DNA from: a virus
DNA: 24,861 bases
Virus record (IMG/VR): IMGVR_UViG_3300025860_000079
Location: 1 to 24,861 of that record
Direction: 5' to 3' (one strand)
In this document: one piece after another, positions 2,173-9,899 of the stretch
How positions within the stretch are numbered: the stretch's first letter is position 1
Layout of the letters: each line of letters opens with the position of its first letter
Position numbers and translations under genes: made by a program
Notes under the pieces: generated by a model
Databases searched by the model: none
What the model was told of the DNA's origin: nothing
The model's input: the letters and a program-made list of their open reading frames with translations, nothing else

Positions 2173-2886
2173 ATGGAGAAGAAAGGGTACTTCGCAATTA
2201 TCCCTGCATCTGTCAGATACGATAAGCGTTTACCTGCCAATGCCAAGCTGCTCTATGGTGAGCTAACTGCTCTGTCCAATGAGAAGGGATACTGCTGGGC
2301 TGGCAATGATTACTTCGCTGGTTTGTATGAAGTTAGCAAGACATCGGTGAGCAAGTGGGTAAGCGCATTGAAGGATGCAGGGTACATTCAGATCCAACTT
2401 GAGTATGCAGAGGGTACTAAACAAATCTTACATAGGTATATAAGAATAGTTAAAGACCCTATTGAAGAAAAGTTACATACCTCTATAACAAAAGTTAATG
2501 ACCCTATTGAAGAAAAGTTAATAGATAATAGTACATCTAATAATACATCTAATAATACAATGAATAAGGGGGTTATCACCCCAGAAAAAAAGGTAAAGAA
2601 GTCGTTCGTTAAACCAACTCTTACTGAAGTCATTGATTACTGTAATGCAAGTCAGGCTAACATAGACCCACAGGGGTTCCTTGATTTTTATGACAGTAAG
2701 AACTGGATGATCGGCAAGAATAAGATGAAGGACTGGCAGGCGTGTGTTAGGACTTGGAAGCGGAAGGAAGCTGATAAGAATAGAGAGCGCCATGAAATTA
2801 TTAAGGCAAAGCAAGTTAAGCAGAACGAGCAGCTTAGAAACAGAACCATTGAACACCAGCTAACTGATACAAGCTGGGCAGATTAA
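2173..2886 (+). CDS. lambda-O-like replication initiator (HTH_36 N-terminus, phage replisome-organiser type)
   Basis: A 237-residue protein with two parts. The N-terminal domain (about residues 1-90) begins MEKKGYFAIIPASVRYDKRL and continues with ANAKLLYGELTALSNEKGYC, then YEVSKTSVSKWVSALKDAGY. This is the winged-helix initiator signature of phage O-like proteins (HTH_36). A low-complexity Asn/Ser/Thr linker (about 117-135) joins it to a C-terminal domain with PTLTEVIDYCNASQANIDPQ and then WMIGKNKMKDWQACVRTWKR, typical of helicase-loader-recruiting tails in these initiators. The start at 2173 is chosen for its AGGAGA Shine-Dalgarno; an earlier ATG at 2152 would overlap the Cro-like gene. Iteron-like repeats lie in the linker-coding region, as in the lambda ori within gene O. 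The protein probably binds them and recruits the host helicase. Confidence 0.82.
   Translation: MEKKGYFAIIPASVRYDKRLPANAKLLYGELTALSNEKGYCWAGNDYFAGLYEVSKTSVSKWVSALKDAGYIQIQLEYAEGTKQILHRYIRIVKDPIEEKLHTSITKVNDPIEEKLIDNSTSNNTSNNTMNKGVITPEKKVKKSFVKPTLTEVIDYCNASQANIDPQGFLDFYDSKNWMIGKNKMKDWQACVRTWKRKEADKNRERHEIIKAKQVKQNEQLRNRTIEHQLTDTSWAD
2445..2526 (+). repeat. four iteron-like repeats inside the initiator gene (candidate origin)
   Basis: AATAGTTAAAGACC (2445-2458), AAAAGTTACATACC (2468-2481), AAAAGTTAATGACC (2490-2503) and AAAAGTTAATAGAT (2513-2526) share an AGTTA core spaced by 23, 22 and 23 bases, close to two helical turns. A longer 28-base unit (2448-2475 and 2493-2520) is repeated with one mismatch. 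Position, copy number and phasing mirror the lambda O-binding iterons. Initiator binding is inferred. Confidence 0.65.
2521..2582 (+). repeat. AT-rich segment with 12-base tandem repeat and a hairpin next to the iterons
   Basis: Directly after the iterons an AT-rich stretch holds a perfect tandem repeat of ACATCTAATAAT (2533-2544 and 2545-2556). A hairpin follows: GGGGT (2569-2573), loop TATC, ACCCC (2578-2582). An AT-rich, easily melted zone on one side of the iterons is what an origin would need. The same bases encode the Asn/Ser/Thr-rich linker of the initiator, so coding low complexity is an alternative explanation. Confidence 0.5.
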
Positions 2887-5246: not shown

Positions 5247-5462
5247 CTACGCCTCCCAGTCTATTAGTCCGTGGTCGTGTAGTATGCCTTCGACCATATC
5301 GAAATAACCGTTGAACCTATCCTGGCTATCATCGGAATAGTATTGCGTCCCATCAGCATCTGTAAGCAATTCAACTTCAAAGTAATCAGCTTCAAGCATA
5401 GTGCTTGCAAGGTCTAAGCAAATGGATATGCGGTCGTGATCATCTAGTGTTTTATTTTGCAT
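5247..5462 (-). CDS. hypothetical acidic protein
   Basis: A 71-residue strongly acidic protein (MQNKTLDDHDRISICLDLAS, then TDADGTQYYSDDSQDRFNGY and a helical end). An AGGAG Shine-Dalgarno lies eight bases before the ATG. It is unrecognised. Its net charge resembles small DNA-mimic or host-takeover proteins of phage accessory regions, but charge alone is weak evidence. It lies between a 57-residue unknown and the small membrane peptide. Confidence 0.7.
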   Translation of the reverse strand: MQNKTLDDHDRISICLDLASTMLEADYFEVELLTDADGTQYYSDDSQDRFNGYFDMVEGILHDHGLIDWEA

Positions 5463-5465
5463 TGT

Positions 5466-5639
5466 CTAAGCTCCTAGGTGGTTTAATTTGTCGCAGATCA
5501 TAATATCCAAGCGCGACAATTGGTGGTCGGATAGTTGCCCAACTGCGTGGACGTTGGCGAATGCCTTACTAGCACGCTTTAATTCTGCGGCCGTTGTAGC
5601 GCGTTTAATACGGTCTACGGCTGATAGGTAATTAGTCAT
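5466..5639 (-). CDS. 57-residue hypothetical protein
   Basis: A small gene read MTNYLSAVDRIKRATTAAEL, then KRASKAFANVHAVGQLSDHQ and a C-terminal part with a single Cys, ending at TAG. It looks alpha-helical with alternating charge; the turn between two helices (about residues 33-38) suggests a compact helical hairpin. It fits exactly between its neighbours, starting four bases after the upstream stop, with an AGGA-type ribosome site. Tight packing and coding-like composition support it. The family is unknown. Confidence 0.62.
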   Translation of the reverse strand: MTNYLSAVDRIKRATTAAELKRASKAFANVHAVGQLSDHQLSRLDIMICDKLNHLGA

Positions 5640-6584: not shown

Positions 6585-6617
6585 AATAATCACCTGTTGT
6601 TGTAGTTAAATAAGTTT

Positions 6618-6645
6618 AAAAAGTACCACTCCGCAGAATGGTACT
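6618..6645 (-). terminator. intra-operon hairpin with UNCG-type loop (terminator or attenuator)
   Basis: On the minus strand AGTACCATTC and GAGTGGTACT (complement of 6645-6636 and 6631-6622) form a 10-base stem with one G-U pair around TGCG, a C(UNCG)G tetraloop. Four to five T follow. It lies between the first gene of the leftward accessory operon and the remaining seven, so it would reduce but perhaps not abolish readthrough. Confidence 0.7.
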
Positions 6646-6656
6646 GATAAAGCTAC

Positions 6657-6887
6657 TTAGATTTTTGATCTTTCTAATTTTAGTTCCACTCTGATTTTAG
6701 TGCATATATCTTTAATCTCATCCGCTCGGCTTGGGTATAAATCGCACGCTAGTTTACGGATGGCGAAACCCTCACACATTTTGATCTCGGCTTCTTTTTC
6801 ATCTTTTAGCGTATGAAATACAGATTTAACATTTTCTATGTTTTTATAGTGTTTGATAAAAGTTGGTAAAAAGTCATAATAATCCAT
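6657..6887 (-). CDS. hypothetical protein, first gene of the leftward accessory operon
   Basis: A 76-residue, probably all-helical charged protein (MDYYDFLPTFIKHYKNIENV, then FHTLKDEKEAEIKMCEGFAI). It is not recognised. It is the promoter-proximal gene, read from the consensus promoter at 6947-6974 with an AGGAA Shine-Dalgarno, and is separated from the other genes by a terminator-like hairpin, so it should be made in greater amount than they are. High early expression would fit a host-takeover or regulatory function; this is inference only. Confidence 0.7.
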   Translation of the reverse strand: MDYYDFLPTFIKHYKNIENVKSVFHTLKDEKEAEIKMCEGFAIRKLACDLYPSRADEIKDICTKIRVELKLERSKI

Positions 6888-6946
6888 TTTTTGTATTCCT
6901 ATATATGTAGTAAGTAAAAATTGTGTTTTCGTTGTTGTTGGGTCGC

Positions 6947-6974
6947 ATTATATAGAGGCATTGCAATCTGTAAA
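6947..6974 (-). promoter_or_regulatory. promoter of the leftward accessory operon
   Basis: On the minus strand TTTACA (6974-6969, 5/6 match) is followed after 16 bases by a perfect TATAAT (6952-6947). The start site would lie near 6940, giving a leader of about 50 bases to the ATG at 6887. Confidence 0.78.
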
Positions 6975-6992
6975 GTATGTTTTGTTTTTTTT

Positions 6993-7025
6993 GAGTTGAA
7001 TGGTGCCAAATAAGAGTTGAATGGT
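6993..7025 (+). repeat. 12-base direct repeats, 21 bases apart
   Basis: GAGTTGAATGGT occurs at 6993-7004 and 7014-7025. The 21-base period puts both on the same face of the helix. They lie just upstream of the -35 of the leftward promoter, so a protein-binding site is plausible. Confidence 0.7.
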
Positions 7026-7082
7026 ATTAATTGATCATTTTTTGTACAATTAATAGACTTTGTTGGTTATTTTTTATACAAT
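7025..7082. repeat. AT-rich inverted repeat and 14-base direct repeats
   Basis: TATTAATTG (7025-7033) and CAATTAATA (7047-7055) are perfect 9-base inverted arms around 13 bases. ATTTTTTGTACAAT (7037-7050) and ATTTTTTATACAAT (7069-7082) are direct repeats with one mismatch, 32 bases apart (about three turns). Together with the DnaA boxes they look like parts of an origin or of a multi-site control region. Confidence 0.6.
7054..7082 (+). promoter_or_regulatory. possible rightward late promoter
   Basis: TAGACT (7054-7059, 4/6) and TACAAT (7077-7082, 5/6) are 17 bases apart and point toward the virion operon. The -10 lies in the second 14-base direct repeat. A weaker alternative is TTTATA (7073-7078) with TATAAA (7097-7102). 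No other good promoter was seen before the terminase genes. Confidence 0.32.
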
Positions 7083-7188
7083 CGGATCAACGGGTTATAA
7101 ATAGAGTGATGGGTGAAATGGGTTTTATCACTATATAGCACCGAGAATCTCACGAGATAGGATCATTGCGCCTAGCAAATGTATAAGC

Positions 7189-7275
7189 TGTGGATATAGT
7201 GTGGATAACTCCAGGTATTCTGTGGATAAAGGTGCGCATAAGCTGTGGAAAAAGGTGTGGATAAGCTGTGGATAA
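7189..7275 (-). repeat. array of six helically phased DnaA boxes
   Basis: TGTGGATAA, the complement of the DnaA box TTATCCACA, occurs perfectly at 7200-7208, 7221-7229, 7256-7264 and 7267-7275. One-mismatch copies lie at 7189-7197 (TGTGGATAT) and 7244-7252 (TGTGGAAAA). All six point the same way. Start-to-start distances are 11, 21, 23, 12 and 11 bases, near whole turns of the helix. Such clusters bind the host initiator DnaA at chromosomal and plasmid origins. That DnaA binds here is inferred from the consensus. Confidence 0.8.
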
Positions 7276-7354
7276 GAGAGGCACCCCCCCTCCCGAAATG
7301 GCGCTCCTGTGTAGTATATATGTCTCTCGCAAAAAAAAATTACTGAGAAATAAG

Positions 7355-7528
7355 ATGATTAAAATAGTAACAGATGAAGAAGTACATGAGATGGATATTG
7401 AGTTGATTGAACTATTTGCAGTGTATCTATTCGACAAAGATGTAGTTGGTATGACTGATTTAATCTATGTTGTAGAAGATAGAATGGCTGTTAGTGGAGA
7501 AAATGACTACCTTGAAACTCAAAAATAA
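7355..7528 (+). CDS. hypothetical small acidic protein, first gene of the late operon
   Basis: A 57-residue acidic, mostly helical protein (MIKIVTDEEVHEMDIELIEL, then FAVYLFDKDVVGMTDLIYVV). The frame is open from 7268, but the earlier part overlaps the DnaA boxes and low-complexity runs, so the ATG at 7355 is preferred, although its Shine-Dalgarno is weak. No family is recognised. It stands at the head of the packaging genes, 29 bases before the probable small terminase. Confidence 0.6.
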   Translation: MIKIVTDEEVHEMDIELIELFAVYLFDKDVVGMTDLIYVVEDRMAVSGENDYLETQK

Positions 7529-7557
7529 AACAACATTTACTTATGCAAAGGTAATAT

Positions 7558-7929
7558 ATGTCTAGGATAGGGATACCCAACAAGAATAAGAAGTTCTTAC
7601 TGGCTCGCTTACAGGATATGTACGGTGAGTCATTCCACCCTATCTTGAAGATGGCAGAAGCTGCTAGTAAACTGGACTACATTGCTGAGGAAGAAGGTGA
7701 TGTGACTGCCCTTAATGCTGCTGTAAACGCATGGAGTAAGGTTGCTGAGTACACTGAGCCTAAGCTAAAGGCCGTAGAGATACGAGCTGACGAGGGCGCT
7801 GTAGTGGCTATCCAACGTAAACGCTTTGATGGCACTGCTATTGAGGCAGAAGTCGTAGAAGTAGACCCAGTAGTAGAGGCAATCGTCAATGCTGCTGTAG
7901 ATGATGATGAAGATGAGGATGAAGAGTAA
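7558..7929 (+). CDS. probable terminase small subunit
   Basis: A 123-residue protein. It begins MSRIGIPNKNKKFLLARLQD, with a G-x-P-N-K-N-K start common in phage small terminases, and continues with a helical core (PILKMAEAASKLDYIAEEEG, then WSKVAEYTEPKLKAVEI). The end is a long acidic tail (VDDDDEDEDEE). Small subunits recognise the packaging site and load the large subunit. The basic helical N-terminus and acidic C-terminus, and its place two genes before the large terminase, fit this role. An AAAGGTAA site precedes the ATG. No residue-level proof is available, since small terminases diverge widely. Confidence 0.66.
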   Translation: MSRIGIPNKNKKFLLARLQDMYGESFHPILKMAEAASKLDYIAEEEGDVTALNAAVNAWSKVAEYTEPKLKAVEIRADEGAVVAIQRKRFDGTAIEAEVVEVDPVVEAIVNAAVDDDEDEDEE

Positions 7930-8105
7930 TGGCTAAAGGCAAAAGCATGGTTCACAAGTTGGACAAAGAGACACGCAAAGAGCACTTCCGTAACTACGAT
8001 GCTAACGGTAACGGTGGTAAGGGTGACGGTAATCGCACATCAACCCCTGAGACTCGTGAGAAGTTCAAAAGTGGCTATGATGCAATCGACTGGAGCAAGA
8101 AATAG
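7929..8105 (+). CDS. 58-residue hypothetical protein between the terminase genes
   Basis: A short basic protein read MAKGKSMVHKLDKETRKEHF, then RNYDANGNGGKGDGNRTSTP and a tail ending DAIDWSKK. It is rich in Gly, Asn and Lys and is probably flexible, with a short Trp-containing end that could dock on a partner. It is coupled at both ends: its ATG overlaps the small-terminase stop (TAATG) and its TAG overlaps the GTG of the large terminase. This places it firmly in the packaging operon. The family is not known to me. Confidence 0.75.
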   Translation: MAKGKSMVHKLDKETRKEHFRNYDANGNGGKGDGNRTSTPETREKFKSGYDAIDWSKK

Positions 8106-9565
8106 TGCCGACAATTGAATACTGCATGGGGCCGCAAGGACAAGTCCTACAAGATTACGCTGACTGTCGCTCTCAGAACTCCTTCATTATGGGGCCACTG
8201 GGTTCAGGCAAGACTGTCCAAACCATCCTCAAGCTATTCGACTTGATGACCGAACAAAAGCCAGTAATGACCCCTGGACATAAGAACTATGGTGTCCGAC
8301 TGTCCCGCATCATTGCCTGCCGAAACACCTATTCCGAATTGTTCTCCACCACCATTAAAGACTGGCTGGAGATACACGAAGACCTTGGCCCATTCCGTCA
8401 GGGTAACAAAGAACCACCTACCCATTACATTAACTTCAGATTAGAAGATGGCACCTCAGTTAAGTCAGAGGTCATATTCATCGCTTTTGACCGCCCTGAG
8501 CACGTTAAGAAGGCTAGGGGTATCCAGTGTACATGGGTATGGCTAAACGAGACGAAAGAGCATTCTAAGGCCGTTCTCGATATGCTTGATCTACGTCATG
8601 GTCGCTATCCTTCCCCCAAGGAGGGAATCAAACCTACGCATCACGGTGTACTGGGTGACAGTAACGCCCCCGACGAAGACCACTGGTACTACAAGCTGGC
8701 AGAAATTGAGCGTCCTGAAGGCTGGGCATTCCATCGTCAACCCGGTGGTGTGTTCAAAGATGGGGAAACTTGGAAGGTAAACGATAAAGCTGAGAATTTG
8801 CCTAACCTCCCTGCTAACTATTACAAACGCGGACTATCAGGTAAAACACATGATTGGATTAAAGTTAATCTTGCTAATGAGTACGGCTTTGTCTCTAACG
8901 GTAAGCCGGTTCACCCAATGTATACGGATAGTGTTCACGCATCCCATATGGACTTCACACCGTGCAAGGACACTCCTATCATTCTGGGTTTTGACTTTGG
9001 TCGTACACCTGCTTGTGCCTTTCTTCAGCGTACTGCTATCGGGCGTTGGGTCTGCTTTGATGAAATGGTGCTTACTGATTCCGGTGCCGTAGACTTTGCG
9101 CCTACCCTAAAGCGCTATATTGAAGAGACTTATCCTAACTGCACCTTTAAGGGCTGGGGTGATCCCTCTGGTTCCAATAAGAATCAGTCCAACAGTGAGA
9201 CTCCATTCCAAATTATGCGAGCCGCTGGCATACCCTGCAACCCAACAGACTCTAACGATCCTCTCAAGCGTAGAGCCGCTTTAGAAGTACCCATGAAAGA
9301 GATGTGCATGGATGGTAAGCCTCGCTTTATTGTCTTGCCCAAAGCCTCTATGATTCGTAAAGGTCTACAGGGTGGCTTCTGTTATCGTCGTGTGCAAACG
9401 TCAGGCGAACGCTACAGTGATCAGCCAGATAAGAATGAATACTCTCACCCAGTAGAGGCGCTAGAGTATGCCCTACAAGGTGAAGGTGAAGGTCGTTCTG
9501 CTCTCCGTAGAGATCAAGGCTTTGCTAAACCCCACACAGCCAAGGTGAACTTTAGTGTCTTCTAA
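8105..9565 (+). CDS. terL: terminase large subunit (packaging ATPase and nuclease)
   Basis: A 486-residue protein with both expected modules. ATPase: Walker A GPLGSGKT (residues 30-37) and Walker B with catalytic Glu in TWVWLNE (143-149). Nuclease (RNase H-like): Asp297 in GFDFGR, Asp353 in GWGDPSG, and a C-terminal YSHPVEALEYAL block where the third acidic position is expected. It drives DNA into the prohead and cuts the concatemer. The length is normal for podovirus-type large terminases. The start is GTG at 8105, overlapping the previous stop (TAGTG), with GGAG upstream; there is no better in-frame ATG before MGPQG. The small subunit precedes it and the portal follows two genes later. Confidence 0.95.
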   Translation: MPTIEYCMGPQGQVLQDYADCRSQNSFIMGPLGSGKTVQTILKLFDLMTEQKPVMTPGHKNYGVRLSRIIACRNTYSELFSTTIKDWLEIHEDLGPFRQGNKEPPTHYINFRLEDGTSVKSEVIFIAFDRPEHVKKARGIQCTWVWLNETKEHSKAVLDMLDLRHGRYPSPKEGIKPTHHGVLGDSNAPDEDHWYYKLAEIERPEGWAFHRQPGGVFKDGETWKVNDKAENLPNLPANYYKRGLSGKTHDWIKVNLANEYGFVSNGKPVHPMYTDSVHASHMDFTPCKDTPIILGFDFGRTPACAFLQRTAIGRWVCFDEMVLTDSGAVDFAPTLKRYIEETYPNCTFKGWGDPSGSNKNQSNSETPFQIMRAAGIPCNPTDSNDPLKRRAALEVPMKEMCMDGKPRFIVLPKASMIRKGLQGGFCYRRVQTSGERYSDQPDKNEYSHPVEALEYALQGEGEGRSALRRDQGFAKPHTAKVNFSVF

Positions 9566-9899
9566 TGTGGATAATGCCTATATAGTGTTTAAGAGCAACA
9601 CAGGTCGCTGGTATTCTCCAATATTACACAGCGATTTTGGGCATTGCCTTGTTGTCGAGCCATCGGAAAGTGGGTACGTTGTGTACGAAAAGCTGACTGA
9701 TGGAGTTAGGGTGTATAATGTCAACCACATAAATGATATAATTGGGCCTACAGATATAACTGTGAGTTATATAAAAAAGGACAGCAAAAGAAGGTTGTTC
9801 ATGCTCAACACTTGCGTTGGCCATGTTAAACAGTTTCTTGGTATAGATCATCCCTTTATATGGACTCCCTATCAACTATACAAGTACATGAAGAGGTAA
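9555..9899 (+). CDS. conserved hypothetical protein of podovirus head module
   Basis: A 114-residue protein with NTGRWYSPILHSDFGHC near the N-terminus (about residues 15-31) and LNTCVGHVKQFLGI then WTPYQLYKYM at the C-terminus. I recall this pair of blocks from hypothetical proteins next to the large terminase in other podovirus-like phages, but know no function. One histidine pair and two conserved-looking cysteines (31 and 87) stand out; a cysteine-hydrolase-like site is conceivable but unproven. The start is the GTG at 9555, with AAGGTG seven bases upstream, overlapping the terminase end by 11 bases. Confidence 0.8.
   Translation: MSSNVDNAYIVFKSNTGRWYSPILHSDFGHCLVVEPSESGYVVYEKLTDGVRVYNVNHINDIIGPTDITVSYIKKDSKRRLFMLNTCVGHVKQFLGIDHPFIWTPYQLYKYMKR

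Follow-up and report, generated by a model that had tools for sequence, protein, structure and literature searches.

DnaA boxes in phage genomes are usually read as replication origins. On the bacterial side, the measured DnaA consensus is TTWTNCACA (PMC5835720), and the low-affinity arrays of oriC, namely R5M-tau2-I1-I2 and C3-C2-I3-C1, align their boxes in the same direction with 2 bp gaps, i.e. as one-direction 9-mers on one helix face in which strong and weak sites are mixed (PMC4451416). Besides the origin, the datA locus combines two consensus boxes, four one-misfit boxes and an IHF site (PMC5835720), and extra copies of datA are reported to titrate DnaA and to delay initiation (PMC5835720). 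Regarding phages, the injection stop signal of T5 contains DnaA boxes, according to a 2026 paper (PMC13250531), and the T5-like phage SPC35 has, in its left terminal repeat, DnaA boxes beside CTGTATAAATATACAG, a near-perfect LexA box (L394, ~5417-5525). In the T7-like group, arrays are found inside the 177 bp direct terminal repeat of the Shigella phage Berlinvirus A7 (L391, 1-177) as well as inside the 292 bp direct terminal repeat of the Klebsiella phage ZK1 (L392, 1-292); the ends of T7 carry CCTAAAG repeats and no DnaA box. Arrays were also located near the terminase in the coliphages P483 and nasanit, and a comparable array was not found near the terminase of BcepC6B, Y3 or Hodr.

Besides these isolates, at least 120 viral contigs contain three or more boxes at steps of 11-12 bp, and the matches listed form 70 sequence clusters. 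Among the genes sampled around the matches listed, the most frequent annotation is large terminase, and replication and recombination genes are encountered too; the distances of these arrays to contig ends were left out of the analysis because the ends of the stored loci are arbitrary. The sequence-only reading of the present locus had held such arrays to be rare in lytic-type phages, a view not upheld by their occurrence in these contigs and in the terminal repeats of the T7-like isolates. DnaA-type arrays also match the small single-stranded genomes of Microviridae (H23, H24, H42, H50, H62 and others).

The window considered here, i.e. the whole stretch of DNA analysed, is a 24.9 kb phage genome fragment. 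Six boxes start at 7189, 7200, 7221, 7244, 7256 and 7267, with successive steps of 11, 21, 23, 12 and 11 bp. On the plus strand, the units read TGTGGATAT at 7189, TGTGGAAAA at 7244 and TGTGGATAA at 7200, 7221, 7256 and 7267; the orientation is the same throughout, with TTATCCACA on the minus strand. Read on that strand, boxes 2 (7200-7208), 3 (7221-7229), 5 (7256-7264) and 6 (7267-7275, the closest to the neighbouring C-tract) are TTATCCACA, box 1 (7189-7197) is ATATCCACA with one mismatch, and box 4 (7244-7252) is TTTTCCACA, a full match to TTWTNCACA. The 23 bp gap is occupied by a seventh, weaker and degenerate unit, likewise on the minus strand (7233-7241; TTATGCGCA, or TGCGCATAA on the plus strand), which is TGTGCATAA (minus strand TTATGCACA) in L132 and L160, both near-identical relatives. 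Tandem Repeats Finder describes a single 11 bp array of 8.5 copies at 7183-7276. The coordinates bear out the four perfect and two one-mismatch boxes, the single orientation and the spacings initially described; scored against TTWTNCACA, the array holds five full matches in 76 bp, since TGTGGAAAA fully matches this consensus too, besides one unit with one mismatch and one with two. Against this figure, 1000 first-order Markov sequences with the length and composition of the window reached at most two consensus boxes per 90 bp on one strand, and outside the array the whole window contains one isolated consensus box, at 9566. A XerC-like half site in GGTGCGCATAA at 7231 was also considered and put down to chance, because the partner half site is absent and the unit fits the ladder of the array.

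The array sits in a 467 bp gap with a leftward gene (start 6887) on one side and a rightward cluster on the other. To its left are encoded a Sak-type annealing protein, a Cro-like regulator, an O-like replication initiation protein (2176-2886, plus strand; phrog_19658, E 6.6e-30) and NinG. To its right and on the plus strand come a small ORF without family match (7355-7528), a putative small-terminase-like protein (7558-7929), so designated by position, its only PHROGs match being a weak one to a sigma factor, and the large terminase TerL (8105-9565), 50% identical to that of BcepC6B and followed by portal and capsid genes. The left flank is AT-rich as first noticed (GC 0.32 at 6601-7200) and the three GATC sites are present (7033, 7085 and 7161), yet GATC is common window-wide, with 86 occurrences observed for 67 expected. 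This flank includes a pair of AT-rich 31 bp repeats of the TTGATCATTTTTTGTACAAT type (7020-7082), conserved in relatives, which are possibly promoter or operator sites; a TTGATCATTTTTTGTACAAT-type motif lies ~20 bp from the C-tract in array-less relatives, e.g. L031. Between 6850 and 7600, a scan for sigma-70 promoters returned matches no more numerous than in shuffled sequence. Among named phages, no DNA-level relative of the region 6800-9600 emerged except for a 58 bp match to a microvirus. The relative G005 is near-complete at 33.9 kb, and no integrase was found among its scanned proteins. One TerL relative, whose array is degenerate, belongs to a Piscirickettsiaceae MAG, which is too weak a basis for naming a host.

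Beside the array lies a conserved core element (7284-7341, plus strand), composed of a C-tract (7284-7290), TCCCGAA, TATATATG (7315-7322) and CAAAAAAAAATT (A9TT; 7330-7341). Its layout in relatives is a C-tract, TCC(C)GAA, ~18 variable bases, TATATATG, ~8 bases and CAAAAAAAAATT, with a near-constant overall length, and it is present in all 91 relatives compared, whatever the class of repeats found next to it. The core always precedes the small ORF, and the small-terminase-like gene can be on either side of it, being upstream of the core in other relatives; the array adjoins the core at a fixed place, upstream of the terminase genes. Such an element may be a packaging or genome-end site or, equally, a late promoter. 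Folding of the core as a DNA strand gave no structure (z 0.45), and an Rfam search of the window gave zero matches. Contig ends are enriched near the core, six of the 28 contigs longer than 14 kb ending at most 250 bp away, an enrichment that agrees with genome ends at this place but may instead come from breakage of assemblies at the hypervariable stretch, and G005 ends ~0.9 kb from the core; as a genome-end map for the group these contig ends are suggestive only.

Some further arrangements were observed around this element. In one locus (L096, 5208-5390), the core and part of the array are tandemly duplicated, 127 bp apart, be it a real feature or one of assembly. In the distant relatives Ss1 (L088, ~1248) and VA-RY-3 (L087, ~5155), a G-tract and, after it, a CGCAATTTT or CGCGATTTT motif lie upstream of the terminase and resemble the core. 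In the L060 subgroup, the core and terL are separated by a frame that resembles, as read by eye, a cytosine-5 DNA methylase.

Compared with the systems described above, the array shares with oriC its single direction and its steps, namely 11 bp (2 bp gap) and 12 bp (3 bp gap) plus one 21 bp step. It differs from the oriC arrays by gaps that are either 2 or 3 bp, by its location beside terminase genes, by an orientation to the neighbouring element that is not conserved and by the presence of a separate, probable iteron origin. Like datA, it would be a non-origin DnaA box cluster, but its boxes are denser and phased. With the left terminal repeat and injection stop signal of T5 it has in common, at the level of sequence, clustered DnaA boxes in non-coding DNA, which in SPC35 are paired with a LexA-box-like palindrome, but T5 belongs to another virus family and the region in question lies within a ~10 kb first-step-transfer repeat. 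Closest in appearance are the one-orientation TTATCCACA arrays of the T7-like A7 and ZK1, in non-coding DNA at genome ends and, in A7, near the terminase, but there the array is demonstrably within the terminal repeat, whereas here the placement seen is next to the core.

Relatives were collected through their large terminase and through a pattern scan for the conserved core; 91 distinct loci extended far enough upstream to be compared. The slot left of the C-tract contains DnaA boxes on the same strand as in the window in 20 of these loci and on the opposite strand in 8, CTG-N10-CAG palindromes in 24, TCAAGA repeats in 7 and none of these in 32. The orientation of DnaA arrays is uniform inside each array and flips between relatives, boxes with at most one mismatch being confined to one strand in all DnaA-array loci except L142, which has a single opposite match. 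The third repeat family, of TCAAGA type (GAGTCAAGATCAAGAC or its complement), was seen left of the C-tract in L033, L016, L019, L023 and L027. Small-terminase-like proteins identical over 89-97 residues accompany different array classes or none. On the TerL tree, the slot class changes at least 25 times compared to a mean of 38 for shuffled labels, and DnaA against the rest changes 9 times compared to 18, so that the slot is inherited yet often swapped. Conservation in related phages, to which the sequence-only reading had tied its interpretation, holds in part: near relatives keep the boxes, but these are missing, inverted or replaced elsewhere among phages sharing the rest of the locus. Since 32 of the 91 relatives lack any array, its function is not essential and, as far as genome comparison goes, the array is an accessory, exchangeable module.

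The way in which the units vary is that of DnaA boxes. Read unit by unit at steps of 11 or 12 bp, the arrays yielded 140 distinct units, and 121 units once restricted to 16 non-redundant arrays. In these 121 units, position 5 (the N of TTWTNCACA) accounts for 46 of the 184 mismatches (p 1e-7), and at position 7 (W) 15 of 25 changes are from T to A (p 0.006), both p-values being optimistic because the arrays partly share ancestry; the 140-unit set agrees with this mismatch pattern. DnaA is very probably the reader of the array, judging from this pattern, and the original assignment as DnaA-type boxes is upheld by sequence, orientation, geometry and conservation in near relatives. Regarding the palindromes, CTG-N10-CAG occurs 58 times within 200 bp left of the C-tract, compared to 26 times with a spacer of 8 and no more than 10 times with any other spacer, and its density there is 11 times that of the loci overall. 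The consensus of these palindromes, TACTGTATGGATATACAGTA, is two positions off the E. coli SOS box TACTGTATATATATACAGTA (PMC13203515; PMC5101192). Such LexA-box-like sites are found in L062, L066, L053, L014 and 20 other loci, sometimes several consecutively, and DnaA and LexA-like sites co-occur in several phages, e.g. G005.

As for replication, the box cluster adjoins an AT-rich stretch with GATC sites and has a geometry like that of oriC, both of which would suit a primary origin of the phage opened by host DnaA, as initially proposed. A better candidate is found elsewhere, however, in the O-like gene itself, where iterons with periods of 22-23 and 45 (2415-2522, plus strand) are the likely replication origin and the adjoining AT-rich 12-mers (TAATAATACATC; 2526-2567, plus strand) the likely melting zone. 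This is the layout of the lambda-type origin inside gene O, present in this phage at 2415-2567, separate from the array and competing with it for the origin role. The iterons and 12-mers are kept in 21 of the 21 close relatives of the O-like gene examined, with or without a DnaA array; the number of iterons varies, and one subgroup has a different iteron sequence with the same period. Iteron-bearing contigs include one with no array (L334, the contig of L032), one with TCAAGA repeats (L331, that of L033) and one with LexA-like sites (L328, that of L014). The array, for its part, is absent from 32 of the 91 relatives, has other repeats in its place in 31 and is inverted relative to the core in 8, among phages sharing the rest of the locus. 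The most likely start of replication is at these iterons of the O-like gene, and the array is very unlikely to be the primary origin.

We favour instead, with moderate confidence, the reading of the array as an exchangeable docking module for host DnaA, acting locally at a packaging, genome-end or late-gene region. The role would be local because the position of the array is constant, and modulatory because its orientation is free and its loss frequent. The strongest rival, and a serious one, is titration, in which accumulating phage copies would absorb host DnaA in trans (LexA in relatives), halting host re-initiation or de-repressing SOS genes. The high quality of the boxes fits such a decoy, as does the freedom of orientation and exact sequence that is indeed observed, and with ~200 DnaA monomers per oriC in E. 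coli (PMC5835720), ~100 phage copies could use up this supply at 6-7 boxes each. For a decoy, though, any site would do, yet the arrays are confined to a single slot next to the core, those of the examined T7-like and T5-like isolates lie at genome-end regions, and the single orientation of each array is not explained by a decoy alone; titration is possible but, on the whole, doubtful.

Two other explanations concern the repeats as such. Neutral tandem repeats expanding at the C-tract without any function would account for the fast turnover (25 class changes on the TerL tree against 38 shuffled), for the absence from many relatives and for the 127 bp tandem duplication in L096, but a preference of their variation for the N and W positions of the DnaA box would be unexpected, as would the repeated emergence of sites for two different host regulators, and this origin of the array is unlikely. 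Direct repeats adjoining terminase genes, with different repeat families at the same site in related viruses, also call to mind recognition repeats for a phage protein, e.g. the R-sites bound by the small terminase at cos or pac. The repeats do not co-vary with the small-terminase-like protein, however, and small-terminase R-sites were rejected because different arrays, or none, accompany proteins that are identical over 89-97 residues; the variation of the units tracks the DnaA consensus instead, and recognition by a phage protein is highly improbable.

Regarding the preferred reading of a local docking module, it builds on features of the DNA itself, i.e. the sites, their DnaA signature, geometry and exchangeability and the conserved neighbouring element, and the occupancy by DnaA and the effect of binding would be as follows. 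Host DnaA would fill the 9-mers cooperatively and in one direction, as it does on the low-affinity arrays of oriC, and the host-protein complex so formed would constitute in cis a barrier or a regulator at the region of packaging, of the genome end or of the late genes. Its local target may be packaging, the genome ends, DNA entry or late transcription, and in this role the array would resemble the DnaA boxes found in the left terminal repeat of T5 and in the terminal repeats of T7-like phages. Beyond this group, and far more tentatively, many unrelated phages could possess at their genome end or packaging locus an exchangeable 'host-state' cassette, consisting of DnaA arrays with oriC geometry or of LexA-box arrays, through which the replication and SOS status of the host would gate DNA entry, late expression or packaging.

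In this phage, a well-formed DnaA array lies apart from the likely origin, and LexA-type sites replace it in near-identical phages, while across phage families DnaA arrays recur at terminase or genome-end regions. If functional, such arrays would mean that phages sense or sequester the host replication initiator and the SOS repressor by way of a small replaceable DNA module, which would also offer a way into explaining why the T5 injection stop signal contains DnaA boxes.
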